Notes under the pieces: generated by a model
Databases searched by the model: none
What the model was told of the DNA's origin: nothing
What the model saw: the letters and a program-made list of their open reading frames with translations, nothing else
Translations under genes and position numbers: made by a program
Shown here: positions 2,585-43,842 of the stretch, piece by piece
Layout of the letters: each line of letters starts with the position of its first letter
Numbering within the stretch: position 1 is the stretch's first letter
Virus record (IMG/VR): IMGVR_UViG_3300047299_000293
Span: 1-44,276 of that record
Strand: one strand, 5' to 3'
From: a virus
Length of the DNA stretch: 44,276 bases

Positions 2585-3943
2585 TCAGGCTGCGACAGTT
2601 CGGTCGTAGGCCAGGATCGGAATCACGCGTCTGGCACTTTGTTCCGGGACTCCATGGACCTGCCCGAAGATGTCTTTGCGATCGTCACGAAAGTCACCGT
2701 CGATGAAATATGGAATGCAAGCCGTTAGGTACTCGAGGGCTGCAGCCAAAAACGGCACGTTGTCCGAATAAGCTGCGTCGCAACCTGCATCCCACAGCGG
2801 TCCTTGCAAAAACATGCATGAACCCTTGCACAGTTGCAGCACCGGGCAACTGGGGCAATCGGGCCTGTGGCTCCAGTGCGTGGCGCTGCGCATCTTGACC
2901 GCCTGCAGGTTGGACAAATGGCCAATTTGGTGGGGCTGCCCATTGGGCGCAGTGGCTGCTGCGCTGACGTTCTGACAGGTGAGCACATTGCCGTGCAGGT
3001 CCACCGCCAGGTTGTTCAGCTTGTCCATGCCGCACTTTTGACCCAGCGAGGTTGCTGGTCGAGCTGAGCGGATAGACTGCACAAAGTCCATGATGCGCTG
3101 CTGCGCCACCGACATGCGCGAAGCCAGGCCCTGGCGCAGTTCTTTGTAGGCCAAGGCCCTGAAACGCACCTGGTCCTGCTTGGTTTGCAAGGTTGCAGCT
3201 AGGCCGCCTTCGTCATAGGGGTCAATGAATGCACCCTCCCCGATGTTCACATCCTGGCCAAACCGCTGCTGAATCCATGCCTGAATCTGCGCCCGGCTTT
3301 GATTGCTGGCATGGACCATGGCGTTGATGCTGATACGGCCCAGAGGATGCAAGCGGGCATACAGGTCCATGATGGCGGCGCATTTCTCAGGGTCGTTCAA
3401 TGGATCGGGTCCACGGGTCGACTGGCCCGGACCGTCGTGTGACAAACCCACAGAAAAACCCATGCGGTCGAGCCACTCGTTTTTCTGGGCATCGAGCAAG
3501 CTGCCATTGGTGATGACGCTGAACTGCGCGTCCGAGTACAAGTCACGCAGGCGTTCAGCCAACGGTTTGAGCGTCTTCCAGTACACCAGGGGCTCCCCGC
3601 CCCAGAACTCGATGCGCTCAGGTGGTTCAAGAAGCGCATCGGTCAGCTGACTGATAAACGGCTCGATGTCATCCGGGTTGCTCGAGTCCGCATACGGCAC
3701 AAAGCGCTGGTTGCAGTAACTGCATTCGTAGTTGCAAGACAGCCCCAGGCTGATCTTAAGGATGCGCACCTGACCCTTGCGGCCGGGTTGGCTGAACGAC
3801 ACCACCGTGGCATCCCGGAAACTGCCAGGCTGAACAGGCGCCACGGGTGTGCCGTCCTGCCAGGTCAGCGTGGACAACTGGTTGTTGTAGTGCAGCAAGA
3901 CTTTATGGCCATCTTGACGCAAGGCGTGAATCTGAAACTTCAT
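2585..3943 (-). CDS. Radical SAM/SPASM protein-modifying enzyme (maturase)
   Basis: 452 aa. The radical-SAM cluster motif CxxxCxxC is Cys70, Cys74, Cys77, and the SAM-contacting GGEP is at 115-118. The C-terminal SPASM motif is complete: Cys304, Gly318-x4-Cys323, then Cys363-x2-Cys366-x5-Cys372-x3-Cys376 and Cys388. This predicts two extra [4Fe-4S] clusters, as in anaerobic sulfatase-maturing enzymes and PqqE-type peptide maturases. Such enzymes modify peptide or protein side chains by radical chemistry (thioether, C-C, epimerisation, formylglycine). Residues 1-60 are an extra N-terminal region of unknown role. The start overlaps the upstream oxygenase stop (ATGA). No sulfatase, short precursor peptide or exporter is nearby. 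The substrate is unknown, with the Cys-rich fibre tip at 7048-7083 the best candidate. Confidence 0.92.
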   Translation of the reverse strand: MKFQIHALRQDGHKVLLHYNNQLSTLTWQDGTPVAPVQPGSFRDATVVSFSQPGRKGQVRILKISLGLSCNYECSYCNQRFVPYADSSNPDDIEPFISQLTDALLEPPERIEFWGGEPLVYWKTLKPLAERLRDLYSDAQFSVITNGSLLDAQKNEWLDRMGFSVGLSHDGPGQSTRGPDPLNDPEKCAAIMDLYARLHPLGRISINAMVHASNQSRAQIQAWIQQRFGQDVNIGEGAFIDPYDEGGLAATLQTKQDQVRFRALAYKELRQGLASRMSVAQQRIMDFVQSIRSARPATSLGQKCGMDKLNNLAVDLHGNVLTCQNVSAAATAPNGQPHQIGHLSNLQAVKMRSATHWSHRPDCPSCPVLQLCKGSCMFLQGPLWDAGCDAAYSDNVPFLAAALEYLTACIPYFIDGDFRDDRKDIFGQVHGVPEQSARRVIPILAYDRTVAA

Positions 3944-4548
3944 GAAAGGGCCTTTTGCGGCTCATGCAGCCGCGTTTTGAACACCAAGACAGGCCGCAGA
4001 TCACGGCAGGCACGGGAGATGGGGTTGACGCCATGGCGGATGTGCCCAGCAAAGAAAACCACCCGAGCGGGCGCGGGCATGACCGAGCCCAGCAGGCGAT
4101 CCTCCTGGTCGTAGAAAACTGTTTCTCCGCCCCACCCCGCTTGCCACTGCCGCACACCGTAGATCAACAGGGTCCTGTCCAGCGGGTGCTGGCTGTCGAT
4201 GTGGACATTGCCTTCATTGCCGTGGGTGTTGGCATTGGCGTAGACGCCATGGCACTGGGTCATGACGGGCAGTAGCAGCGCCCGCATGCATGACCGCCAA
4301 ACATCAGAGAGCACGCCCGCCTGCTGCTGAAGAAACTGCGGCGTGCAGCTGTAGTCTGAAGCGTGGTTGATGGGCCAGTCCCGACCCAATAATTCGCGGT
4401 GCCAAATCGGAAATGGCTCCGGCTCGTTTTTGTTGGTGATGCGGTGGTAACGGTACTGAAGGTGCTGCAGCCAATCGACGAGCTCCTGCGTTACGCCCGG
4501 ATCCAGAACGCCATCGGCGAATGAAACGGGACTGCGGGCGTCAAGCAT
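3940..4548 (-). CDS. 2-oxoglutarate/Fe(II)-dependent dioxygenase
   Basis: 202 aa from the ATG at 4548, with GGAGG 7 bases upstream. It has the prolyl-4-hydroxylase-like core: HID (His116, Asp118), a GGETVFYD strand (140-147), distal His172 in HIRHGVNPIS, and Arg185 thirteen residues later in RPVLVFKTR for 2-oxoglutarate binding. This iron site and spacing fit the 2OG-FeII_Oxy family, which hydroxylates amino-acid side chains in proteins or peptides. It is sandwiched between a second oxygenase-like gene (8-base overlap) and the radical-SAM gene (ATGA overlap), so it probably acts on the same target. The substrate is not known. Confidence 0.82.
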   Translation of the reverse strand: MLDARSPVSFADGVLDPGVTQELVDWLQHLQYRYHRITNKNEPEPFPIWHRELLGRDWPINHASDYSCTPQFLQQQAGVLSDVWRSCMRALLLPVMTQCHGVYANANTHGNEGNVHIDSQHPLDRTLLIYGVRQWQAGWGGETVFYDQEDRLLGSVMPAPARVVFFAGHIRHGVNPISRACRDLRPVLVFKTRLHEPQKALS

Positions 4549-5260
4549 GTCCTGCCTCCGGTTCTGCCACCGAGTGAAACTCGATGGCCAGGGTGTCGCG
4601 CGTCTGGGTGCGTAGCGGAAAGTAACCATGCGGCGTGCACAAAGGCATGGTTACAAGCAGGCCCGGCTGGGGCGTGATCGGGAAATGCACTGGTGTTTCC
4701 CAGGGCAACAGGGTTTCATTGGCCCGTTTAGCCGGATTCCCAATGACCATACAACCCGGCGTTCGAACATTGGGGCTGTCGGTCGTTGGGTAATCGGATT
4801 GCAAGAACAACACCGTATTGAGCCCAGCACGCGAGCTGGCAATGTGCTCAGCCACATGAAAGCCCGGCTGGCAGCGCATGATGTGGGCACTCAAACGGTA
4901 GCGGTATGTGCCCCAGATGGATTGCAGGTGCTCACGGACCACCGCCAACATGTCATGCAGACCATCCGCCGGGGATACGCCCCCCTGCAACAGGTCATGG
5001 CTGCGGCACTGCCAGGCTTCAGGCCCCCAGCGGTGCTCGGCGTCTTCCCGAAGGATGGCCTTTGCCAGTCGTTCAAGCCTTTCCGGCGACAAGCCAGAGG
5101 GCTGGACGTACACGGTGCTGGGCCATAAAGAAAAAACCCAACGCTGGTGTGACGTTGGGTGGTTCTCTGAGACGTCGGCTGATGCACCTGGGTGCGGACT
5201 GGCTTGTGTGGCCACCGCCATGATGGATGGCGGGGCGTGCGCTGATGCGTCAAATGACAT
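4541..5260 (-). CDS. Oxygenase-like protein, possibly 2OG-Fe(II) type
   Basis: 239 aa. The start at 5260 has AAGGAG and overlaps the upstream stop by 11 bases. Residues 1-40 look disordered. The rest resembles a double-stranded beta-helix oxygenase: GFHVAEHIASSRAGLNTVLF (134-152; His135, Glu138, His139), then GLLVTMPLCTPHGYFP (200-215; His211), and RDTLAIEF (221-228; Arg221). The distal His followed ten residues later by Arg is typical of 2OG oxygenases, but a clean HxD is not seen, so the first metal ligands are uncertain. A strong terminator-like hairpin (5131-5160) lies within codons 34-43. A cupin-like non-enzymatic protein is the alternative. Confidence 0.55.
   Translation of the reverse strand: MSFDASAHAPPSIMAVATQASPHPGASADVSENHPTSHQRWVFSLWPSTVYVQPSGLSPERLERLAKAILREDAEHRWGPEAWQCRSHDLLQGGVSPADGLHDMLAVVREHLQSIWGTYRYRLSAHIMRCQPGFHVAEHIASSRAGLNTVLFLQSDYPTTDSPNVRTPGCMVIGNPAKRANETLLPWETPVHFPITPQPGLLVTMPLCTPHGYFPLRTQTRDTLAIEFHSVAEPEAGHA
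5131..5160 (-). terminator. Terminator-like hairpin inside the oxygenase coding region
   Basis: Arms 5136-5143 and 5153-5160 (ACCCAACG/CGTTGGGT) are perfectly complementary over 8 bp with a 9-base loop. On the minus strand the stem runs straight into TTTTT, then CTTT. It lies about 100 bases into the first oxygenase gene. It could be an attenuator limiting expression of the two oxygenases and the radical-SAM gene, or the relic of a terminator at the edge of an inserted cassette. Confidence 0.6.
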
Positions 5261-6239
5261 GAATCACTCCTTGGGCCAGTGCGGTGACGGCCCCAAATCC
5301 AAATTGAAGGTGCAGGTTTTCTCCAGCACGCAGGCCCAGGGACAGGGCCCGAATTTGGGCTCTTCCTGCAGTCATCCGGACGCGTTGGTGTGGGACATAG
5401 CCCGAGACGGCGTGCACATTCAGCCAGGCATCGGCGGGCTCTGAAGCCCGGATTTCGAGCTCCACCCACTGGTCTGTAGCAACCTCTGACGGTGCTTGCA
5501 CGGTGAGCTTGGGCATGCGTTCGTGCAGCCGGGTGATGGTGTGGGCATGCTGGGTCAATGCGTCACTTGGCTTGGCATAAGTTACGTACTCATCCACTTG
5601 TAGGTTGGTCCAAAGTGGTCCGCCTGGGTGAGCGTTGATGCGCAGAACCATCTGGGCGCTGAGCGGCGATTCATGCCATGGCACCAGACATGACCCGGCA
5701 ACCAAGTGCATCTGACGCGCCTTGGTGAGTGGCAAAGCCAAGGCGGTAAAGCCCTCGCTGTCTACCCGGCTGCTGCGGGTGACCACATGGCGATTGAAGG
5801 GTGTCATGAAGCGCCAGGTATCTGTGCACAGCACAAACATCCACGCGGCCCAATCACTCAGGTGCTCCCCATACATGCGGGGCTTGGCGCGCATGGCCTG
5901 TGGGTCGAGGGCGATTTCATCGACCAGGCCCCACGGCACACCATCAATGGTCTCGGTGTGGACGGATGGCATGTCCAGTCTGACCGGCAAGATATAGGGA
6001 CTGGGCTGGCCGCGTCTGAGCAATGAATGCGCTTTGAGGATTGATGCGCCTAAAGGATGTGCCCGATACTGCTTTTGGGTCACTTGGCCGACCGAACGGT
6101 CTGGCCTGAGCGACTCCAATGGCTCCCACAGCCGCCAGGTCAGGCGATCCGTTTCAGCCAGGACCTCCACAGCCAGCGGCTGCGTGAATTCATCGACCCG
6201 CTGTACGAAGCGCGCACGGACAATTTCAGTACCGCTCAC
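5250..6239 (-). CDS. Unknown phage protein with C-terminal beta-rich domain
   Basis: 329 aa from a GTG start at 6239 that overlaps the previous stop (GTGA) and has GGAGG upstream; upstream in-frame codons lack a ribosome site. No family recognised. Residues 1-240 are mixed and Trp/Met-rich (WAAWMFVLCTDTWRFMTPF). Residues about 245-329 read like an Ig-like beta-sandwich (KLTVQAPSEVATDQWVELEI, then LRAGENLHLQFGFG). It belongs to the tightly overlapping gene chain leading to the oxygenases and radical-SAM enzyme, so it may be a structural tail component or an accessory to the modification system. No signal peptide or membrane segment is seen. Confidence 0.7.
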   Translation of the reverse strand: MSGTEIVRARFVQRVDEFTQPLAVEVLAETDRLTWRLWEPLESLRPDRSVGQVTQKQYRAHPLGASILKAHSLLRRGQPSPYILPVRLDMPSVHTETIDGVPWGLVDEIALDPQAMRAKPRMYGEHLSDWAAWMFVLCTDTWRFMTPFNRHVVTRSSRVDSEGFTALALPLTKARQMHLVAGSCLVPWHESPLSAQMVLRINAHPGGPLWTNLQVDEYVTYAKPSDALTQHAHTITRLHERMPKLTVQAPSEVATDQWVELEIRASEPADAWLNVHAVSGYVPHQRVRMTAGRAQIRALSLGLRAGENLHLQFGFGAVTALAQGVIHVI

Positions 6240-7030
6240 ACCCGCACCTCCAGCTCTTCGACACCGCTGAACCACTTGAAACCCAACTTGATCTTGGCCA
6301 GAGCACCAGCGTCTGCGCCAAAGAGCGTGACAAGGGCTTGCCCTTGTTCCAGGTTTGGTCGGCTGTTGCTCAGGGCTCCGGCTGTGGTGCTCAGAAGCAC
6401 CTGCCCTGACACCGGGAGCACCATCCCCTGATCATTGACCGCCGTGATGCGGATGCGCCGGGGATCACCACCTTCATCGACCAAACGAAACGAGGGAAAC
6501 GCCAGAGCCATGGCAACCGAATTGCTTTCCCACTCTTGGTCAAACTCAAAACCCATCACCTCGGTTTGAACCGCTTGGGGAGAGCACATGAGCACCAGGG
6601 AAGGCTCCAAACCCAACGGTGGAATCCAAAACTGGGCCAAGACCAGCATGGGCTGCTGGTTCCAGTACTGCCGAAACCCTTCTTTAGACAAGGCAGTTTG
6701 CGCGAACTTGTTGATCCACACCGGCTCGCGCTCCCCTTGACGCAGTGCAAAGAGCCAAACGGTGTAGGCATTGCCGGGATCTTGCGCGAAGTTCTGCAGG
6801 TCACTTACTGTGACAGCATGGACAAATGCGCTTTGATGGCCGACCAACATCGGCGCAGACGATTCATCAATGACCCGACCACTTTCATCCAAGGCTTGCT
6901 CAAAAGCAGGCGTGAGGTGTTCGATCAAGAAATCGCCCTCCACCTTCTGAATGCGAATGAGGTTGGTTCGGTGCGCGTTTGTTGTGCTCGCAGGGCTTTG
7001 CATCGGATAAGACATGCGTATGGTTTTCAT
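6236..7030 (-). CDS. Unknown phage tail-region protein with C-terminal Ig-like domain
   Basis: 264 aa from the ATG at 7030 (AGGGGAT upstream). The frame is open for a further 16 codons into the fibre gene, but those codons come from the Cys-repeat DNA. It starts 14 bases after the fibre stop. Residues about 180-264 resemble a bacterial Ig-like/filamin-type sandwich (RIRITAVNDQGMVLPVSGQV, then ALVTLFGADAGALAKIKLG). The N-terminal part is not recognised. A short stretch, LVDEGG followed by basic residues, also appears near the fibre C-terminus. It may be a fibre-associated or fibre-maturation protein; the function is unknown. Confidence 0.7.
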   Translation of the reverse strand: MKTIRMSYPMQSPASTTNAHRTNLIRIQKVEGDFLIEHLTPAFEQALDESGRVIDESSAPMLVGHQSAFVHAVTVSDLQNFAQDPGNAYTVWLFALRQGEREPVWINKFAQTALSKEGFRQYWNQQPMLVLAQFWIPPLGLEPSLVLMCSPQAVQTEVMGFEFDQEWESNSVAMALAFPSFRLVDEGGDPRRIRITAVNDQGMVLPVSGQVLLSTTAGALSNSRPNLEQGQALVTLFGADAGALAKIKLGFKWFSGVEELEVRV

Positions 7031-7044
7031 GAGCAAATCCCCTT

Positions 7045-7980
7045 TCAGCAGCCACAGCAGTTGCAATTGCAGTTGCAATTGGTCAGCACATTCACCGTGC
7101 GCAACCGCACCTGTCCACCTTCATCAACCAGTTCGTAGTCATGCCGGGTTGTGATGTTGCCGCTGCCATAGCAATTGATGGCATAACCAGTGCCTGCGCA
7201 ATTGGCCACTTGCTTAAAGAAGTAGTCGTGCAGCCAACCATAGTTGGCGGTCCACATGGAGCCGCCGTTGTTCATGTACATGTCCCAATTGCCGTCGGTC
7301 TTCAAAAACCCCATCAGGTTGCTGTTGACGTGCAGGTAACGGGTGCTGCCCTGGTCTGTGTCGTAAAAGTCGATCGTGGGCGAGGTGCTCTGTACGGTCT
7401 GACTGGGCAATGTCAGGCGCCCACTCATGCTGTCGCCAGTACGCGCTACCCGCCCCGACAAATCGATGTTGACCGTGGCGTTGCCGTTCGCGTCCGGACC
7501 ACCACCGTTAACCGAGCGGACAAAGGCCGAGGCATCGTAGCCGTCCAGGCGGTCTGCGTCCATCGCCTTGGCATTGATACCCAAATAGGCCGAGTTGTGG
7601 TTGTGTGAAGCTGAAGCAAAAGCACTGGCGTGCTGACCGTCGAGCAAGTCGGCATCGAGCCCGGAGCCCGCGCCATCCACCGTGAGCAGTTTGGCCAGCA
7701 CGTCCGCTGCTGTGTAAGCAGCCGCATTGAGCTTGACCGCGAACTGGGCATCGATCCCACTGGCCAGGTCCATGATGAAGCGCCAGTTGTCCGGGTTGGT
7801 ACCAATCAGCTGGTAAAGCTTGAGCTGGTCCGTGCGGTAGCACAGCATGCCCACTTGCTGGTTGGTCGTCGGAAATGTGGTGCCGCTGTTGCAGGAGATC
7901 GCCGTCTTGTCGTTGTTCAGGATCTCGATGAGCGAGTCAGACAGCGTGCGCGACGACGGTATGTCGGTGAAGTTTTGCAT
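7045..7980 (-). CDS. Tail fibre/receptor-binding protein with Asn-Cys-rich C-terminal tip
   Basis: 311 aa. The N-terminal part (NSGTTFPTTNQQVGMLCYRT, then LKLYQLIGT) is typical of a phage fibre attachment region. The middle has two fibre repeats of the LLDGQHASAF/RLDGYDASAF type, an HNHN motif like those near metal-binding fibre tips, and SGRVARTGDSMSGRLTLPSQ. The C-terminal region is Gly/Asn/Trp-rich with Cys263 and Cys273. The last twelve residues are Thr, four Asn-Cys pairs, then Cys-Gly-Cys. This tail is unlike ordinary fibre tips or chaperone domains. The five genes directly downstream form an overlapping chain ending in two oxygenase-like enzymes and a radical-SAM/SPASM maturase. Confidence 0.85.
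   Translation of the reverse strand: MQNFTDIPSSRTLSDSLIEILNNDKTAISCNSGTTFPTTNQQVGMLCYRTDQLKLYQLIGTNPDNWRFIMDLASGIDAQFAVKLNAAAYTAADVLAKLLTVDGAGSGLDADLLDGQHASAFASASHNHNSAYLGINAKAMDADRLDGYDASAFVRSVNGGGPDANGNATVNIDLSGRVARTGDSMSGRLTLPSQTVQSTSPTIDFYDTDQGSTRYLHVNSNLMGFLKTDGNWDMYMNNGGSMWTANYGWLHDYFFKQVANCAGTGYAINCYGSGNITTRHDYELVDEGGQVRLRTVNVLTNCNCNCNCCGC
7048..7083 (-). repeat. Asn-Cys repeat at the fibre C-terminus (12-bp DNA repeat)
   Basis: Codons 300-311 of the fibre gene. The DNA contains the 12-base unit GTTGCAATTGCA nearly twice, giving alternating Asn (AAC/AAT) and Cys (all TGC) codons, then Cys-Gly-Cys before TGA. Six of the last ten residues are Cys. TTGCAA is self-complementary, so the tract could expand or contract by slippage. 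In sequence composition it resembles the core of a ribosomally made, post-translationally modified peptide. Confidence 0.8.
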
Positions 7981-9849: not shown

Positions 9850-9875
9850 AAAAAAATCAGCGCACTGCTCAGTGC
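9850..9875 (-). terminator. Weak terminator-like hairpin at the end of J
   Basis: GCACT-GCTC-AGTGC (62-66/71-75 within 9862-9875) is a 5-bp stem overlapping the J stop codon. On the minus strand it is followed after five bases by a run of seven T. The stem is short, so termination would be partial at best. Confidence 0.35.
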
Positions 9876-12800
9876 AGCCGCAAACTGCTGAACGCACCCA
9901 CGGGCTCAAGCCGTGCGCTGGCCGACTGGACACCGCCGCCCATCCGGGCGGCAAAGAGGCGGCGTTCTGTGCTAGTCTGGCAAACCCCCAGGCAGATCCG
10001 ATCGGATGCTTCCAGTTCAAATGCGAGCGTGATTCGCCGGGACAAATGGTCTTCCAGAAAGAAGCCTTGGGTTTGGGCGTCGTAGCCCAGCAGCAAATGG
10101 CCGACTGGCCCTGTTGCTTTCCAGATCACGCAAGTCGTGACCTCTTGGGGGATGAACCAGAACGAGGTGTGGAACACCTGCGGCAGGCTCACAGTCCAGG
10201 CCACCTGGGTGGTGTCCTTGACCATCAGCCCCTTGCCGTAGCGGCCATCGCCGTAACTCACGCCCGCCGACTGGATCGTTACTGCATTGCCAATGCCCAT
10301 CACAGATCCGCTGAGCCGCCAGCCGTAGAGTTCACCCGGGTGCAGCACATCCTCTCGCGCCATCTGAAACCGCGCATCCACGTTGGCGATGGCGCCGTCG
10401 TAGGTCCACTGCCGCCGGGCGGCGTCACCGCTCCAGACAAAGTTGGCTTCCTGCCAGGTGGTGCGGTCATCGACCGAAGCGCCCAGACTGCTGAGCAAGG
10501 TGTTCTGTGCCCGGATGGGCGAGACCAGATCCAACTCGAACAGGTATTCGGCCACTTGCGCGCCGGTGTTCATGCGCAGCACGTTTTTGCCATTGACCGT
10601 GACCACCGAGGCGAAGTGCTTGGTGCCAGCAAAGCCCCCTGCTTGCTCGTCACGCTCGAGGATCAGGTTGGCGTTTTGCGGCTGAGCCACCACGGTCGAG
10701 ACGAAAGTGGGCGTGTCGCTGTAGATCCCGGGCGAGGCGATCGCCTTGATCCAGAACTTGCGCTCGCCATCAAATCCGGAGGGCAGCGTGTAGCTGGTGG
10801 ACTTGACCTCGGCCACAAACAGCGATGCGTCCCATGCCGCACCTTCTCGCAGCTCATAGCCCACCACCTCGGGCTCTGGGTTGGGTTGCCAGCGAAACTC
10901 CAGCCGGTTGGCCGACTGCACGACATCGAACTGGCGCACCGTGGCCGGGGCCAGCAAGGTCAGCACAAAGGTGTTGACATGCGCGCTGTATTGGCCCGAG
11001 GTGTCATAAGCGCGGATGTGGTACGGGTACTGCCCGGCCGCGTCCTGGTCGTGGACCATCTGGGTGCCCGAGGTCTTGGCGACCAGTAGGGCGTCGTCCC
11101 AGCCTGGCCCCACTCTCACCTCATAGCCCGCCAGATCGGCATCGGGCAGTTCGTCCCAGCTCAGCAGCAGATCGGACATGCGCCGCTGCACGGTAAAGCC
11201 GGTCACATCCGACGGGGGCAGTGTCTTGCCCAGCACCGTGGCGCTGAGTGTGGCGGGCGCACTTTCTTTGCGGGTGATGCCGATGGCCTTTAAGCTGAAC
11301 TCATACTCCCCCTCTTGTGCATCCCGGATTTCTGCGTAATTGGCGCTCACCAGCGGCAGGCTCTCGAAATTGCCACCGCCTACCCGGTAAGCAAGCCGGT
11401 AAGCAATGGCACTAGGTACCTCAGCCCAGGACAGTTGCACCAGCACCTGCGCCCGGTCTTTGACCCGGTACAGGCTCTCTCGCATGCTGAGGGCCGTGGG
11501 GGCGGCAGGCATGTCCGACAGCACCGTGATGGCGCGCGGCTGCAGCGCCAGGCCCTCTTCAATGGCCGCGTACTTGCCCGGGTTGTGGGCCAGAGCCGTG
11601 ACTTCATGCACACCGGGCTCGCGCTCGGCCGCTGACACCACCCGAAACAGTTGTGGCACGATGATGGAAGAAGCCAGTACCCAAATGGCATCGGTTTGCG
11701 GCGCCATGCTGAAGGGGATGGTGACCGTGAGGGTTCGCCGAGCGTGTGCATCACCACTGGACGCAGCGAAGGTAGCCCCCACCAGGCGCTCTTCTACACT
11801 GCCATTGGGCAAGATCACCGAAAGCCACCAAGGCAAATCGGCTGGCAAATCCTGGTCCAGGGTAACGCTGGTGGTGGTAGCTGCTGCGACGCGCCCCCCA
11901 AGGCGCATGCCGCCCCGACTTGGGTCAGCCACCTGGATGACATCGCCCGGGCGCACCACTGCGCCTTCCAATCCTGTTCGGAAGGTGATGATTTCTGATT
12001 CAGACTGCTCGGAATACAGCAGCCACTTGCCCACCCGGTTGGCCTGCCCGCGCGAGGTGCAGCCCATGGCCACCACATCGGCTTGCACCACGCCGTAACG
12101 AGCGATGCCTACGACGTCCTCAACGTATTCCACCTTCTGCCTGTAAAAATCCTCCGGATCGACCCAGCTGACCAGGGCCACGGTGTGCCGGGCTTTGGCA
12201 GACGAGCCCTGGTAGGCGAACTCGCCATCGATGACGTTGGCAGCGGTGAATTGGTAGACCGGGTCTTGGGGCGCATCTTGCGTGACGGTGATGGCTCCAC
12301 CCGACCAATAGGCCATGCCCCGAAAGACCGAAGCCATGTCCTGCACCACCTTGTAGGCCTGCTCGCGTGTTTGCAGGTAGAGGTTGCAGGTGAAGCGAGG
12401 CTCGAGACCACCCAGGCCATCGGGCACGAATTCGTCACAGTAACGGGCCACCCGGTACAGGGCCCACTTGTCGACCTGGGACTCAGGGATGAAATGCCCC
12501 AAGCCATAACGGGTGTTGGTGACCAGATCGTAAAAACACCAAGCCGGGTTATCCGTCCAGGCCACCTTGAAGGTGCCATCCCAGACACCCGCGTATGAAC
12601 GGGACTCGGATTCATAGTTGGACGGCACCCGCACACGCAGGAGTTTGAGCTCGTAGCTGCGCCGGGGGATGGCGTTGAACTGCGAGGCGTCCACCCGCAA
12701 GGCCATCAGGGCGCTGTTGGGGTAGCGCAGCTTGCTTTCGATGACCTCAGTGTACGAGTCCAGAAAGGTCTTGTTTTGCAGGCTGCTTTGGGTCGCGTCC

Positions 12801-13414
12801 TCGGTCAGTCTGCGAAGACGAACATCCCAAGGGCCTGTGCCGGACAGTGGCACGTAGTAACTGCGTTGATAACGCGAAGTGGTCTTGCCAGAGACCGTGT
12901 CGGTGAGCAATTGAACAAAACCAGCGCCTGCTGACTGCAAGTCGATCGCATAGCTCACCGATGTGCCGTTCAAGTCGCCGTTGGTCGTGTCCTGCAAGGT
13001 GAGCGCGGGCATGCTCACTTTAAGGCGCACAGCGTCCACGTCGGGGTCGGTGATGGCGCGCACGACCGGCTGGGCAAACTTGCACTCCACGCCGACCGAG
13101 ACTTCGTTTTCTACCGAAGCAAAGCCCGGGATGTAACCCTGCTGCTGGGTGCCGGGGCGGCTTTCAAGTGTCACCCCAGAAAAGTTGTAGCTGCCATCGG
13201 CATTCTGAATCGGCGTGTCGTCCAGAAAGACCGACTGCAGGCCCTGGACCAGGCCTTCGATTTCTCCCTCGCAGACCAAATCGACCACACGGGCGTAGGC
13301 TTTGGAGCGCAGGCTTTCGGCAGCTTCCTGGGCCACACGGGCGCTACCGCCGCCCGACTTGCCACCGCCACCTGCGCCGATGATCAAAGGATTTGAAGCT
13401 GGCATCAGATTCAT
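9869..13414 (-). CDS. J: Tail tip/host specificity protein J (lambda gpJ-like)
   Basis: 1181 aa, the size of lambda J. The Gly-rich N-terminus (GAGGGGKSGGG) leads into the typical J start: AYARVVDLVCEGEIEGLVQG, VFLDDTPIQNADGSYNF. The central part has the tail-tip features ending at ITVTQDAP and VSWVDPEDFYRQKVEYVED. Several fibronectin type III-like modules follow from about residue 600 (TVQRRMSDLLLSWDELPDAD, VVQSANRLEFRWQPNPEPEV). A distal lectin/concanavalin-like region at about 930-1175 may bind the receptor. The start at 13414 shares its surrounding sequence (ATCACTGC before ATGAA) with the K start, supporting this codon over ATG 13405. Forms the central tail tip. Confidence 0.93.
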   Translation of the reverse strand: MNLMPASNPLIIGAGGGGKSGGGSARVAQEAAESLRSKAYARVVDLVCEGEIEGLVQGLQSVFLDDTPIQNADGSYNFSGVTLESRPGTQQQGYIPGFASVENEVSVGVECKFAQPVVRAITDPDVDAVRLKVSMPALTLQDTTNGDLNGTSVSYAIDLQSAGAGFVQLLTDTVSGKTTSRYQRSYYVPLSGTGPWDVRLRRLTEDATQSSLQNKTFLDSYTEVIESKLRYPNSALMALRVDASQFNAIPRRSYELKLLRVRVPSNYESESRSYAGVWDGTFKVAWTDNPAWCFYDLVTNTRYGLGHFIPESQVDKWALYRVARYCDEFVPDGLGGLEPRFTCNLYLQTREQAYKVVQDMASVFRGMAYWSGGAITVTQDAPQDPVYQFTAANVIDGEFAYQGSSAKARHTVALVSWVDPEDFYRQKVEYVEDVVGIARYGVVQADVVAMGCTSRGQANRVGKWLLYSEQSESEIITFRTGLEGAVVRPGDVIQVADPSRGGMRLGGRVAAATTTSVTLDQDLPADLPWWLSVILPNGSVEERLVGATFAASSGDAHARRTLTVTIPFSMAPQTDAIWVLASSIIVPQLFRVVSAAEREPGVHEVTALAHNPGKYAAIEEGLALQPRAITVLSDMPAAPTALSMRESLYRVKDRAQVLVQLSWAEVPSAIAYRLAYRVGGGNFESLPLVSANYAEIRDAQEGEYEFSLKAIGITRKESAPATLSATVLGKTLPPSDVTGFTVQRRMSDLLLSWDELPDADLAGYEVRVGPGWDDALLVAKTSGTQMVHDQDAAGQYPYHIRAYDTSGQYSAHVNTFVLTLLAPATVRQFDVVQSANRLEFRWQPNPEPEVVGYELREGAAWDASLFVAEVKSTSYTLPSGFDGERKFWIKAIASPGIYSDTPTFVSTVVAQPQNANLILERDEQAGGFAGTKHFASVVTVNGKNVLRMNTGAQVAEYLFELDLVSPIRAQNTLLSSLGASVDDRTTWQEANFVWSGDAARRQWTYDGAIANVDARFQMAREDVLHPGELYGWRLSGSVMGIGNAVTIQSAGVSYGDGRYGKGLMVKDTTQVAWTVSLPQVFHTSFWFIPQEVTTCVIWKATGPVGHLLLGYDAQTQGFFLEDHLSRRITLAFELEASDRICLGVCQTSTERRLFAARMGGGVQSASARLEPVGAFSSLRLH

Positions 13415-30264: not shown

Positions 30265-31524
30265 TCATTGGACAGCTGGATCAGGAAGCGCTTTTTCGCT
30301 TGCCTCAGAAAACTTCAACCCGTCGTCTTCACGCACCGCCTGCTGGCCGGTGTAGTCCTCCCAGCGTTTGATGATCACGTCCACGAACTTGGGATCGAGT
30401 TCAATGAGGCGGGCCTGACGCCCGGTCTTTTCACTGGCGATCAGGGTGGTGCCGGAACCTCCAAACAGGTCCAGCACGATGTCTCGGCTCTTCGATGAAT
30501 TCTTGATGGCCCGCTCGACCAGCTCGACCGGCTTCATGGTCGGGTGCAGGTCATTGACCCGAGGCTTGTTGTAGTTCCAGATGTCCGACTGGTCCCGGTC
30601 GCCGCACCAGAAGTGGTCCGAGCCCTGCTTCCAGCCATACAGGATGGGCTCGTACTGGCGCTGGTAATCCGCGCGACCGAGCGTGAAGGTGTTCTTGGAC
30701 CAAATGATGAACGTGGACCACTTGCCCCCTGCCTTGATCCAGGCCTTTTGCAGGGTGTGCAGTTCCGAGGAGCTCATGCACACGTAGCAGGCACCCTTGG
30801 TGACCAGGAGCAGGTTCAGACAGGCGTCGTACAGGAACTGGAAGAAGCCCTCACCCAGATCGTCATTCATGATGCGCCGGTCTTTGCTGCGCATCTTGTC
30901 CTTGGCGCTGTTGCCGTAGTCCACGTTGTAAGGCGGATCGGTAAAGGCCATGTCGGCCAGTTGGCCACCCATGAGGCGCTCCACATCCGACAGGACCGTC
31001 GAGTCGCCACAAAGGAGGCGGTGGTTGCCGAGAATCCACAAGTCCCCAGGTTTGGAAACAGGATCTACTGGTGCTTCTGGGATTGCATCATCCTCAGTCA
31101 AACCACCGCCTGATTCGTCACCGTTGAGCAGCTCTTCGAGCTCTATGTCGGTGAAACCCATCAGGTCCAGATCGAAGTCGGCCGCTTTGAGCTCGGCCAA
31201 CTCCAGTTTCAAGAGCTCGTCATCCCAGCCCGCGTTCTCGGCCAACCGGTTGTCGGCCAGGATGTAGGCCTTCTTCTGCTCGGGGGTCAGGTGCCCCAGC
31301 TCAATAACCGGCACATCCTTGAGACCGAGCTTGCGCGCAGCCATCAAGCGACCGTGGCCAGCAATCAGGCCCTTGTCACCGTCCGTGAGGATCGGGTTGG
31401 TCCAGCCGAACTCGGTGATCGAGGCCGCGATCTGTGCCACCTGGGCATCGCTGTGGGTTCGGGCATTGCGTGCGTAGGGGACGAGCGCGTCCACTGGGAC
31501 CATTCGGATCTCAGGATGATTCAT
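30265..31524 (-). CDS. ParB-domain/DNA adenine or cytosine-N4 methyltransferase fusion
   Basis: 419 aa from ATG 31524 (TTG 31551 is less likely). Residues 1-100 are a ParB/Srx-like domain (ALVPYARNARTHSDAQVAQI, LIAGHGRLMAARKLGLKDVP). Residues 160-400 are an amino-methyltransferase with catalytic DPPY (196-199) before the SAM-binding FGGSG (354-358), the beta-class order. HPTMKPVELVERAI lies between. ParB-methylase fusions are frequent in phages and plasmids and modify phage DNA, probably for evasion of restriction. No cognate restriction enzyme is seen, so it is an orphan methylase. Confidence 0.92.
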   Translation of the reverse strand: MNHPEIRMVPVDALVPYARNARTHSDAQVAQIAASITEFGWTNPILTDGDKGLIAGHGRLMAARKLGLKDVPVIELGHLTPEQKKAYILADNRLAENAGWDDELLKLELAELKAADFDLDLMGFTDIELEELLNGDESGGGLTEDDAIPEAPVDPVSKPGDLWILGNHRLLCGDSTVLSDVERLMGGQLADMAFTDPPYNVDYGNSAKDKMRSKDRRIMNDDLGEGFFQFLYDACLNLLLVTKGACYVCMSSSELHTLQKAWIKAGGKWSTFIIWSKNTFTLGRADYQRQYEPILYGWKQGSDHFWCGDRDQSDIWNYNKPRVNDLHPTMKPVELVERAIKNSSKSRDIVLDLFGGSGTTLIASEKTGRQARLIELDPKFVDVIIKRWEDYTGQQAVREDDGLKFSEASEKALPDPAVQ

Positions 31525-31568
31525 GGGGGTGACCGGTAAAATCGACCGCAAAACGAGAATGTTCTGCA

Positions 31569-37694: not shown

Positions 37695-38288
37695 ATGAGC
37701 CAACTTGCCCAATCCATCCTCTCGCAAGCGCAATCCCTCCCCGAGGGAGGGCTGCTCTCGCCCAAGGAGTTCCTGCACCTGGGCTCTCGGGCTGCGATTG
37801 ACCAGACCCTCTCCCGTCTGGCACGTGAAGGCCTGCTGCTCAGGGTTGGTCGTGGCGCTTACGCCCTGCCGGTTCAGGGCCGCTTTGGCGTGCGTCCGCC
37901 CTCGACCGAATCCGTGGTGGAAGCGATCGAGTCCACCAGTGGGGAGACTGTGGTGGCCAGCGGCGCTGCCGAGGCCAATGCGCTGGGCTTGACCACACAG
38001 GTGCCCACACGCGAGGTCTACCTGACCTCTGGCCCTTCCCGGCGACTGAAACTGGGGAACCGGGAGGTGGAACTCAAGCACGGCAACCGCTGGCAGATGC
38101 TGCTGGGCAAGCGCCCAGCTGGCAAAGCCATCCGTGCGCTCATGTGGTTTGGCCCCGAACAAGCGCCCAAGGTTTTGCAAGTGCTCAGGAGCAAACTGCC
38201 CAGCCAGGAATGGGAGGCCATGCGCCAAGCTCGTGCGGGATTGCCCAGCTGGATGGCCAAAGCAGTAAGCGAGGTGGCCATTGGCTGA
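37695..38288 (+). CDS. abiEi: AbiEi-type antitoxin/repressor (DUF6088-like)
   Basis: 197 aa. The N-terminal winged helix (LSPKEFLHLGSRAAIDQTLS, LAREGLLLRVGRGAYALPV) and middle SVVEAIESTSGETVVASGAA, ANALGLTTQVPTREVYLTSG are typical of AbiEi/DUF6088 type IV antitoxins. They neutralise the toxin without binding it and repress the operon. The operator lies just upstream and the toxin gene overlaps its end by 8 bases. Likely gives the lysogen abortive-infection protection. Confidence 0.88.
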   Translation: MSQLAQSILSQAQSLPEGGLLSPKEFLHLGSRAAIDQTLSRLAREGLLLRVGRGAYALPVQGRFGVRPPSTESVVEAIESTSGETVVASGAAEANALGLTTQVPTREVYLTSGPSRRLKLGNREVELKHGNRWQMLLGKRPAGKAIRALMWFGPEQAPKVLQVLRSKLPSQEWEAMRQARAGLPSWMAKAVSEVAIG

Positions 38289-39294
38289 TTCATGGTTCAC
38301 CCTCAGCCGCGAAGACCAGGCTGAAGCACTCGAAGTGGCTGCCGCTCAGACCGGACGCCCGCCTCACCTTCTGGAAAAAGACATCTGGGTCGTCTGGACC
38401 CTGTCTGCCATCTATGGGTCAGCCCTTGCGGAAAAACTGACCTTCAAAGGCGGCACCTCGCTGTCCAAGGTCTACAAGATCATCGATCGGTTCTCCGAAG
38501 ACATTGACCTGACCTACGACATCCGCGAAGTGGTTCCGGATCTACTGCGCGATGGCAACCCAATTCCCGCCTCATCGAGTCAGGCCAAAAAGATCACTGA
38601 CCGGGTTCGCGAACGATTGCCCCAGTGGATTGAGGGCGAAGTGGTTCCGATCCTGCTGTCCGCCCTTGAGCGTGATGGACTGCGTGCCAGTCTGACACTT
38701 GCTGGCAATGAGCAGGAAAAACTCATCCTGGCATATGAGCCCATCAAGGTAGGCACCGGCTATGCGCCATCCACCATTCAGCTGGAGTTTGGTGGACGAG
38801 CCACGGGTGAACCGCACCAGCGCCATAACGTCGCATGCGACATGGCACCGGCCATCAATGGAATTGAATTCCCGACGGCGCAACCTTTGGTGATGGCCGC
38901 CGAACGGACTTTCTGGGAGAAAGCCACGGCAGCACATGTGTACTGCAAGCAGGGCCGACTGCGTGGCGAACGCTATTCAAGGCACTGGTACGACCTGGCC
39001 GCCATGGCCAACTCGGGACATGCCCAAAAGGCGATCACGGATCTCGAACTGGCCCACGCAGTGGCTGAACACAAGTCGATGTTCTTTGCCGAAAAAGATG
39101 TCGACAAGGCACCGATTAACTACAGAGCAGCGGTCAGCGCTGGAATTCAGATCATCCCCGACGGGCATGCGCTCGAAGCACTCAAAAAAGACTATGCCGC
39201 CATGCTGGAAGATGGCTTGCTCTCCACGCACCAGCCCAGCTTTGACGAAGTCATCTCCGCCTGCGCCCAGCTACAAAGCCTGATCAACCGATAG
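38281..39294 (+). CDS. abiEii: AbiEii-type nucleotidyltransferase toxin
   Basis: 337 aa from TTG 38281; no ATG or GTG is available near the domain start. Nucleotidyltransferase signature: LTFKGGTSLSKVYKIIDRFS (GGTSLSK 57-63) with SEDIDLTY (Asp74, Asp76) as metal ligands. Then VMAAERTFWEKATAAHVYC and SRHWYDLAAM, typical of the PF08843 family. Such toxins add nucleotides to tRNA 3' ends or otherwise block translation and stop growth when released. Its 3' end overlaps the convergent 39271-40242 gene by 24 bases. Confidence 0.92.
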   Translation: MADSWFTLSREDQAEALEVAAAQTGRPPHLLEKDIWVVWTLSAIYGSALAEKLTFKGGTSLSKVYKIIDRFSEDIDLTYDIREVVPDLLRDGNPIPASSSQAKKITDRVRERLPQWIEGEVVPILLSALERDGLRASLTLAGNEQEKLILAYEPIKVGTGYAPSTIQLEFGGRATGEPHQRHNVACDMAPAINGIEFPTAQPLVMAAERTFWEKATAAHVYCKQGRLRGERYSRHWYDLAAMANSGHAQKAITDLELAHAVAEHKSMFFAEKDVDKAPINYRAAVSAGIQIIPDGHALEALKKDYAAMLEDGLLSTHQPSFDEVISACAQLQSLINR

Positions 39295-42023: not shown

Positions 42024-42502
42024 AGCCCCGATCCATTACCCCGCGCGAGCAGCGCAGCCAAGACAAGCTCGATGCCGTCCAGCGCCAGGTTGCCGACCTA
42101 CACGACCTCAAAATGTCCGAGCTCTGGCAGCTCTGGGATATGCACTTCTCGCGCCGCCCGGCCCATCCCAACCGAAACTTCCTGACATCGCGGCTGGCCT
42201 ACCGACTCCAAGAACTGGCCTTTGGCTCTTTACCGCAATCAACCCAGGAAAGACTGGCCGACTATGGCCAGCACCTCTCCAAGATCAAGAGCAAGACCCC
42301 GGCCAAAGCGGTGGCCATGCCGGGGGCCACCCTAGTGCGGGAATTCGACGGCAAGGAGTACAGGGTGCTGGTGCTGGCCGATGGCCGCTATGAATACAAC
42401 CGCCAGATTTACGGCAGCTTGTCCGCAATCGCCAAAACCATCACCGGAACGCAATGGTCCGGACCGTCCTTCTTTGGCCTCAAATCCACGGGGGCTGCAT
42501 GA
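42020..42502 (+). CDS. DUF2924 protein
   Basis: 160 aa. Conserved DUF2924 blocks: LHDLKMSELWQLWDMHFSRR, RNFLTSRLAYRLQELAFGSL, LVREFDGKEYRVLVLADGRY, SLSAIAKTITGTQWSGPSFF. DUF2924 genes very commonly sit directly upstream of serine recombinase genes in proteobacterial prophages and islands, suggesting a recombination accessory. Coupled on both sides by ATGA overlaps. Confidence 0.9.
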   Translation: MKPRSITPREQRSQDKLDAVQRQVADLHDLKMSELWQLWDMHFSRRPAHPNRNFLTSRLAYRLQELAFGSLPQSTQERLADYGQHLSKIKSKTPAKAVAMPGATLVREFDGKEYRVLVLADGRYEYNRQIYGSLSAIAKTITGTQWSGPSFFGLKSTGAA

Positions 42503-43842
42503 ACATGCCAACGCCCAAACGGTGTGCGGTGTACTGCCGCGTCTCCTCCGACGAAAGGCTGGACCAGTCCTTCAACTCGATCGATGCCCAGCGTGAGTCG
42601 GGCCTGTCCTTTGTTATGAGCCAGCGCGATGAGGGCTGGGTGCCGGTGCAGGACACCTATGAAGACCCGGGTTACTCGGGCGGGAACATGGAGCGTCCGG
42701 GGCTCAAACGCCTGATGGCGGATATCAAGGCCGGACGGATTGACATGGTGGTGGTCTACAAGATCGACCGCCTCTCGCGTTCATTGGCCGACTTTGCCAA
42801 GATGGTGGAGGTCTTTGACAAGCACCAGGTCAACTTCAGCTCGGTGACCCAGCAGATCAACTCGGCCACTTCGACTGGGCGTTTGATGCTCAACATGCTG
42901 CTGTCGTTTGCCCAATTCGAACGCGAGGTGACCGGCGAGCGCATCCGCGACAAGATTGCCGCCTCCAAACGCAAGGGCCTGTGGATGGGTGGCCCCGTGC
43001 CGCTGGGTTATCGCGTGGAGAACCGGTTGCTGCTGATCGATCCGAAGGAGGCAGAGACCGTGAACTGGATTTTTGACACCTACGCCAGCACGGGATCGAC
43101 CACGCAGATGGTCCAGCAAATGAAGGAACAAAATCACCTGACCAAGACGGGGCGGAACTTTTGCAAGCAGTCGCTGTACAAGATTTTGCAGAACCGGGTG
43201 TATCTGGGCATGCTGGCGCACAAGGGCCAGTACTTTGCCGGTGCCCACCAGCCCCTGATCGATCAAACCCGATGGGACAAGGTGCAACAGTTGATGGTGC
43301 GCACCAGCGAAGAGAAGACCCAGGCCACCTGGTCCCTGAAGGCACGCACACAGTTCCTGCTACGCGGCCTGATCTACAGCCCAGGCGGGGATCTGTACCT
43401 GCCGATGGCCACACAGAAGAAATCCGGAAAGGTCTACCGCTACTACGTGCACAACCGGAAAATGCACGAAGGTGCCAGCCAGAGCAATATTTCCAATCAA
43501 CCCGCCGAACCGGTGGAGCAAGAGGTCACGCGACAGGTTCTGGATTTCCTGCGCTCAGGCTCGATGCTCAACAAATATTGGCACCAGATACAGACCTTCA
43601 ACCCTGGCATTCCCGAATCCCAGGCTGTCGTACTGATCCTGCAGCGCACCGCGCAAATCTGGGACAGCTACTTTGATCAGGTCAAAAGCCACATCATCCG
43701 CAGCTTGGTCGAGCGGGTCACGCTGCACGACGACGACACGATCGAGGTCAGCTGGCGCACCCATGAGTGGTTGCCCCTGCTCGAGGCCATGAAGCCCAGA
43801 ACGGTAGGTGCAGACAAATTGGAAATGGAGATGCACGCATGA
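42499..43842 (+). CDS. Large serine recombinase/integrase
   Basis: 447 aa from ATG 42499 (ATGA with DUF2924). Resolvase domain: CAVYCRVSSDE with nucleophile Ser16 (or Ser17), YEDPGYSGGNMERPGLKRLM, VVVYKIDRLSRSLADFAKMV. Then a recombinase domain (GLWMGGPVPLGYRVENRLLL, KTGRNFCKQSLYKILQNRVY) and C-terminal region with FLLRGLIYSPGG but no full four-Cys zinc ribbon. It is smaller than phiC31-type integrases. It probably integrates and excises this phage; the attP has not been located. Confidence 0.93.
   Translation: MNMPTPKRCAVYCRVSSDERLDQSFNSIDAQRESGLSFVMSQRDEGWVPVQDTYEDPGYSGGNMERPGLKRLMADIKAGRIDMVVVYKIDRLSRSLADFAKMVEVFDKHQVNFSSVTQQINSATSTGRLMLNMLLSFAQFEREVTGERIRDKIAASKRKGLWMGGPVPLGYRVENRLLLIDPKEAETVNWIFDTYASTGSTTQMVQQMKEQNHLTKTGRNFCKQSLYKILQNRVYLGMLAHKGQYFAGAHQPLIDQTRWDKVQQLMVRTSEEKTQATWSLKARTQFLLRGLIYSPGGDLYLPMATQKKSGKVYRYYVHNRKMHEGASQSNISNQPAEPVEQEVTRQVLDFLRSGSMLNKYWHQIQTFNPGIPESQAVVLILQRTAQIWDSYFDQVKSHIIRSLVERVTLHDDDTIEVSWRTHEWLPLLEAMKPRTVGADKLEMEMHA

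Follow-up and report, generated by a model that had tools for sequence, protein, structure and literature searches.

A portable cysteine-rich tail on phage fibre proteins and its association with a radical-SAM/SPASM enzyme

The window analysed here, a stretch of viral DNA of 44,276 nucleotides (IMG/VR record IMGVR_UViG_3300047299_000293, positions 1 to 44,276), encodes a fibre-like protein that ends in the cysteine-rich sequence TNCNCNCNCCGC. This raises the question of why a structural protein of a phage should finish in what looks like a RiPP core, and whether a neighbouring enzyme acts on it.

The fibre and its cysteine tail

The predicted product of the fibre gene (Table 1) is classed as a tail fibre on its family matches and its place after the tail genes. 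It matches several PHROG tail-fibre families, of which phrog_7389 is the best (E 2e-10), and its gene follows a 1181-aa ORF (9869-13414) that, judged by eye, encodes a host-specificity (J-like) tail protein; a Pfam search, metal-binding families included, gave no match. Read on the minus strand, the C-terminus is RTVNVLTNCNCNCNCCGC*, in which the eleven codons of the tail occupy 7080..7048 and the stop codon 7047..7045, and the span of 7048-7083 originally given for the tail includes Thr300 as well. Cysteines stand at residues 302, 304, 306, 308, 309 and 311, and translation thus bears out the prediction that the last ten residues hold six of them. The further claim that all are encoded by TGC was wrong, as five codons are TGC and that of Cys309 is TGT; the repeat described in the underlying DNA is real, with AATTGCAACTGC present as two perfect copies. 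By simple arithmetic, at a Cys frequency of about 1%, at least six Cys in ten residues would arise by chance with a probability of about 2e-10 per protein end.

Table 1. Features of the fibre and enzyme locus and of related loci (positions refer to the window unless a locus is named)
Feature	Position	Strand	Basis or remark
Tail-fibre-like protein with the Cys tail, 311 aa	7045..7980	-	translation and PHROG tail-fibre matches
NCNCNCNCCGC tail, residues 301-311, presumed core/substrate	7048..7080	-	peptide conserved despite synonymous change
Variable fibre tip, residues 261-300	7081..7200	-	least conserved part of the fibre; swapped between relatives
Accessory protein, 264 aa, family c0	6236..7030	-	c0 profile E 6e-32
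Accessory protein, 329 aa, family c0	5250..6239	-	c0 profile E 3e-56
2OG-Fe(II) oxygenase-like protein, 239 aa, family c1	4541..5260	-	alignment, invariant H139 and H211
2OG-Fe(II) oxygenase, 229 aa	3940..4629	-	PF13640, 30.9 bits (cut-off 27)
Radical SAM/SPASM protein, 452 aa, presumed tail-modifying enzyme	2585..3943	-	PF04055 above cut-off
Hint-fused tails	L035, L267, L275, L276, L305, L326, L350, L353, L354
DCxxISP-like ORFs	L332 7775-7972; L345 7765-7959; L348 7617-7973; L351 7768-7977

The decisive evidence that the tail is real is its conservation across relatives. A scan of viral contigs with the whole fibre returned 79 loci, 74 of them with a complete C-terminus. Comparison of related C-termini, as proposed in the original prediction, showed the cysteines to be conserved: a dense tail, with at least four Cys within 12 residues, closes 72 of these 74 fibres, and L031 and L077 have shorter NCNC tails instead. 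The N-terminal part of the fibre is highly conserved (61 distinct fibres), and identity to the window fibre, taken by blocks, is mostly 0.6-0.9 as far as residue 260. It is only 0.32-0.54 over residues 271-300, yet 0.80 in the tail itself. The tail has thus been retained through exchanges of the tip in front of it.

Selection acts on the peptide. The 100 tail peptides collected are encoded by 174 distinct tail DNA sequences, in which Cys is written 695 times as TGC and 296 times as TGT and Asn by a mixture of AAC and AAT, and for individual peptides such as NCNCNCNCDCYC and NCNCDCNCC there are eight or nine different coding sequences apiece; the recurrence of the same peptides from so many DNAs marks purifying selection on the residues. 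Likewise, twelve distinct fibre sequences share the tail peptide of the window fibre unchanged, with variation in the codons used for Asn and Cys. The commonest non-Cys residues are, in order, Asn (679), Asp (108), Ala (105) and Gly (76). The original prediction held that slippage of the repeat could alter copy number between strains. Copy number does range from two to about nine xC units between distant lineages, with no support for slippage as the source. Slippage and assembly artefact were rejected as explanations of the tail itself, since the peptide stays constant while the codons change and independent contigs agree. A chance origin was rejected on the conservation across relatives and on the matched NSNSNSNS control given below.

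Linkage of the tail to a radical-SAM gene

The genes on the strand of the fibre run in the order fibre, two c0 proteins, the 239-aa and 229-aa proteins, the radical-SAM/SPASM enzyme, a small phrog_1024 protein whose position is that of a holin, and a putative lysozyme. This arrangement of tail and enzyme is a general one. Among the loci found with the fibre, a radical-SAM gene was present in 35 of the 35 with at least 4.5 kb of downstream sequence and in 62 of the 63 with at least 2 kb. In a second scan, blind to both enzyme and fibre, viral contigs were searched only for DNA encoding NCNCNCNC; among the matches listed, a same-strand radical-SAM/SPASM gene followed in 44/44 C-terminal cases with at least 4.5 kb downstream. 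A control scan of the same layout with NSNSNSNS gave the enzyme in 0/120 loci. The final enzyme profile contains tail-seeded members; an earlier profile, built from enzyme-seeded loci alone, detected the enzyme in 77 of 102 tail-seeded loci among the matches listed, a set that includes contig ends and internal low-complexity matches. All these counts come from contigs that are partly redundant and from loci that are phylogenetically non-independent.

The converse search gave the same picture. Almost all of 77 viral loci found with the enzyme have an upstream ORF with a Cys tail, and the others are cut contigs, loci with shorter tails (RCNC, YNCNCNC), L099 and the Hint-type L152. Close homologues that keep the enzyme and lack the cysteines, the counter-evidence named in the original prediction, were sought; short contigs aside, the one phage-like exception, L099, has a tail-less fibre on a contig that is rearranged and whose enzyme gene is truncated. 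L152 was rejected as a second exception, as it carries a CxxC-rich Hint-type variant. Apparent tails on the opposite strand were also discarded, because the NC repeat, when read in antisense, itself gives SCNC. The tail lies upstream of the enzyme on the same strand in 283 of 285 pairs, with a median gap of 1.4 kb, and a candidate peptide and a modifying enzyme therefore share one gene row, as in RiPP systems. The association of tail and enzyme is solid.

Across 50 systems whose fibres are related, the type of tail correlated with enzyme distance when fibre N-terminal distance was allowed for (partial 0.235, reached in 1 of 2000 permutations). In the same 50 systems it was uncorrelated with fibre distance once the enzyme was allowed for. 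Tail and enzyme genes are close neighbours, so that co-inheritance alone accounts for part of the correlation between them.

The tail is not a property of one fibre. It was found behind 83 divergent upstream contexts, on proteins of 65 to 1082 aa. In L329 the protein has a collagen-like repeat, and in L114, L121, L252 and L269 two or three small proteins in a row each carry a tail. The tail is the sole element that these otherwise divergent proteins have in common. Most RiPP precursors have a conserved leader, whereas the 30 residues before the tail in these 83 contexts held no strong leader motif, with only weak enrichment of Tyr, Arg and a Gly turn; the enzyme may recognise structure instead. 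The accessory genes vary from system to system. Among 187 distinct systems, 60 have c0 and c1, 36 have c0 alone and 18 have c0, c1 and c3, but 44 have none of the common accessory families in the stretch between tail gene and enzyme, and in ten the two genes directly adjoin. Thus, the minimum is the tail and the radical-SAM enzyme.

In nine distinct proteins (Table 1) the tail is followed directly by a Hint-type sequence with a CFP or similar start, which scores above the Pfam Hint cut-off in L275 and more weakly in L035 and L267. Hedgehog-type domains autocleave before their first Cys. By analogy, the Hint domain would cut before its own Cys, so that the mature protein ends in the tail; the fusions suggest C-terminal trimming only.

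Two further arrangements were seen. Proteins of 67-79 aa ending in YDDYSTACNCNCNCNC or alike lie near one or several radical-SAM genes (L162, L203, L168 and L227) and are apparently a different branch of the system. In L239, a protein at 2873-3586 with CQSCQ-type repeats and an NCNCNC end lies near two radical-SAM genes and is possibly an expanded core.

The enzyme and its candidate chemistry

The 452-aa enzyme matches phrog_1802 (E 2e-57). Its radical-SAM motif CX3CX2C (C70/C74/C77) is invariant in 57 relatives, and it carries a SPASM domain (TIGR04085, 33.7 bits against a cut-off of 27) whose full seven-Cys set (C304-X13-G318-X4-C323, C363-X2-C366-X5-C372-X3-C376, C388) is invariant or nearly so in the same relatives. 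The AF2 model (pLDDT 94, pTM 0.91) is closest to the thioether-forming RiPP maturase CteB (Foldseek, VIA; Z 24.1 and rmsd 4.4 with 362 aligned, covering residues 1-406), followed in the same comparison by ChlB (Z 21.6), anSME (20.9) and TigE (18.3); further neighbours include EpeE, an epimerase, and SuiB, which makes C-C cross-links. The scores of the enzyme against the specific maturase families tested all lie far under the respective cut-offs, including PapB (NF047865, 57 bits against 340, yet the best NCBIfam score), SCIFF (TIGR03974, 29.5 against 425) and anSME (TIGR03942, 43 against 349). Identity as an antiviral viperin was rejected, as the score is 55 bits against a cut-off of 180 and a SPASM domain is present; viperins are not known to have one. 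The idea of a RiPP-core-like tail beside a modifying enzyme has strong support in the near-constant co-occurrence in very divergent phages and in the peptide-maturase-like structure.

Several known systems are instructive here. The ranthipeptide pair CteB/SCIFF has the same SPASM fold and a Cys-rich substrate encoded near the enzyme gene, and CteB acts on a genetically encoded peptide; the substrate there is a short six-Cys peptide, whereas here it would be the C-terminal stretch of phage proteins 65-1082 aa long, in a repeated xC pattern. With PapB, Cys-Xn-Asp thioethers form for n=0-6 and the rings may be in-line or nested (PMC9413430), which shows that this type of enzyme copes with closely spaced cysteines. 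The CX3D/E core motif of PapB substrates is absent from the tail of the window, which has no Asp or Glu, and among its relatives Asp is a minority x residue (108, against 679 for Asn).

Distant relatives of the enzyme (35-41%) occur beside YcaO genes in Ramlibacter, Variovorax and a gammaproteobacterium, with an adjoining ORF of about 65 aa. That is a RiPP-type setting, but it has no NC tail and no phage context in the flanks read. Small ORFs that share a DCxxISP-like motif (Table 1) lie just upstream of bacterial radical-SAM genes; three of these ORFs adjoin YcaO, and they are probable precursors of a RiPP class.

Nearer at hand, the fibres of Achromobacter phages JWF and 2-1 have a related N-terminus, an NC tail and a radical-SAM gene, and differ in the Hint domain after the tail; their records annotate an anaerobic sulfatase maturase and a Hint family protein and draw no link between them. 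Some phage tail fibres have chaperone or autocleaving C-termini, which are cut off or beta-structured. Those fibres likewise carry a C-terminal processing element after the tip, whose counterpart here would be a Cys repeat served by a radical enzyme of its own.

In our view the phage-encoded tail is probably a portable RiPP-core-like substrate at the end of fibre or tail-tip proteins, modified by the radical-SAM/SPASM maturase. The parts of this reading differ in strength. That the tail is the substrate of the enzyme is likely, although a different protein encoded at the locus could be its target. Thioether chemistry on the tail cysteines is an even call, as is a structural role for the tail at the tip. 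The most specific form, a widespread phage system in which the maturase welds the xC ladder on structural tip proteins into a new polycyclic thioether cap, with the tag portable and sometimes exposed by Hint, falls slightly short of an even chance. In such a scheme, the fibre would be made and would then trimerise, and the c0 protein, where present, may, speculatively, hold or present the tip. The maturase would close thioether rings along the ladder, from Cys sulfur to a carbon of the neighbouring Asn, Asp or Ala; 2OG-Fe(II) oxygenases, found in many but not all of the phages, may hydroxylate Asn or Asp, which is again speculation; and the Hint domain, where present, would cut itself off to leave the tail as the mature C-terminus. 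The product would be a rigid, covalently stiffened tip cap, resistant to oxidation and protease.

With xC alternation, the cysteines of an extended strand all point to the same side, an arrangement compatible with a ladder of rings as well as with a metal core. The tail may accordingly be a metal or Fe-S tip, in which cysteines lined up on the NC strands of the trimer bind Zn, Cu or Fe, with help from the radical-SAM protein in building or loading the site; CxCxC arrays are classic metal ligands, and iron is present in some phage tail tips. We consider this unlikely, as a SPASM-type peptide maturase is not needed for metal binding and is nearly always present, and the enzyme model lies closest to peptide maturases, with the nitrogenase-cofactor enzyme NifB at Z 11.0 against 24.1 for CteB. 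Another chemistry on the tail (epimerisation, C-C links, methylation or dehydrogenation) is improbable too: radical-SAM peptide enzymes are known for all of these, and EpeE and SuiB are structural neighbours, but so extreme and strict a Cys content favours chemistry at sulfur.

Decidedly improbable is a reading in which the tail cysteines, as disulfides or as free thiols, hold the trimer together or attach to the host surface while the enzyme acts elsewhere in the operon. Free cysteines at a fibre tip could pair outside the cell, and the tail is the presumed substrate of the enzyme; yet the adjoining gene pairs have nothing between them and the tail is all that the divergent upstream proteins share. 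Finally, oxidation of tail Cys by a sulfatase-maturase-like enzyme to formylglycine aldehydes for covalent host attachment is very unlikely: anSME ranks with the closest matches by structure and by sequence, and the JWF copy carries that annotation, but the score is far below the anSME cut-off, the tails lack a CxPxR-type motif, and the residue after the second SPASM Cys is Gln324 in 54 of 57 relatives, where anSME has an Asp that we take to be its general base, and this lowers the reading further.

Returning to the accessory proteins, the gene of the 264-aa c0 protein has a ribosome-binding site, AAAGGGGA, before its ATG at 7030; the protein has no Pfam or PHROG match and, by family, an Ig-like C-terminal domain. 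Residues 242-329 of the 329-aa c0 protein are predicted to form an Ig-like sandwich (AF2 pLDDT 81; Ig-like matches at Z about 10). The fold gives no pointer to what c0 does, and a weak SoxY match was set aside as the generic Ig-like fold. The 239-aa protein has no Pfam match, so that its oxygenase assignment is an inference from the alignment. Its residues 139-141 read HIA, and most relatives have D, E or H at the acid position; H-x-A/G is the pattern of Fe/2OG halogenases, and the window copy may follow that pattern or be inactive. The 229-aa oxygenase scores 53 bits as FlmC-like, against a cut-off of 240. Fatty-acid-desaturase-like genes lie between tail gene and enzyme in L264 (4888-5643) and relatives (FA_desaturase) and, by eye, in L349 (6645-7376), and are possible extra tailoring enzymes.

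Novelty and phage context

RiPP-type modification by radical-SAM enzymes is already known; the new element is the class of substrate, phage structural proteins. We know of no virion protein with a RiPP-type radical modification. A search of the open literature, preprints excluded, and of a few subscription papers found no phage fibre described with a radical-SAM partner, and this coverage makes it weak evidence of novelty. Should the tail prove to be a maturase substrate, RiPP-type radical chemistry would have a part in the construction of phage particles, the first case of a radical-SAM protein modification serving to build a virus particle. It would also give a role to phrog_1802, a common, unexplained phage radical-SAM family that is filed as 'other'. 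Furthermore, the enzyme seemingly accepts a short C-terminal tag on many proteins, which would be useful for making cross-linked peptides.

The hosts named in the genome collections are Limnohabitans, Rhodoferax, Burkholderia paludis, Paraburkholderia, Polynucleobacter, genera of the Roseobacter group, Bradyrhizobium and Rhodoplanes, and JWF and 2-1 are isolated phages that bear the system. JWF is a UV-inducible siphovirus (PMC3899368). The window has a gene that, by eye, is serine-recombinase-like (42454-43842), and near-identical gene rows occur in genomes of Limnohabitans and other Burkholderiales; together these suggest that the window is from a temperate phage. It also carries an AbiEi/AbiEii pair on the plus strand (37695-38288 and 38281-39294; PADLOC E 2.5e-63 and 1.2e-98), a defence module of the toxin-antitoxin type. 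After the lysis genes, 1-918 on the minus strand encodes an HTH_17 domain fused to an RfaH/NusG-type antiterminator, with the RfaH equivalog above cut-off, and 30265-31551, also on the minus strand, encodes what by eye is a ParB-like N-terminus fused to a DNA methyltransferase.
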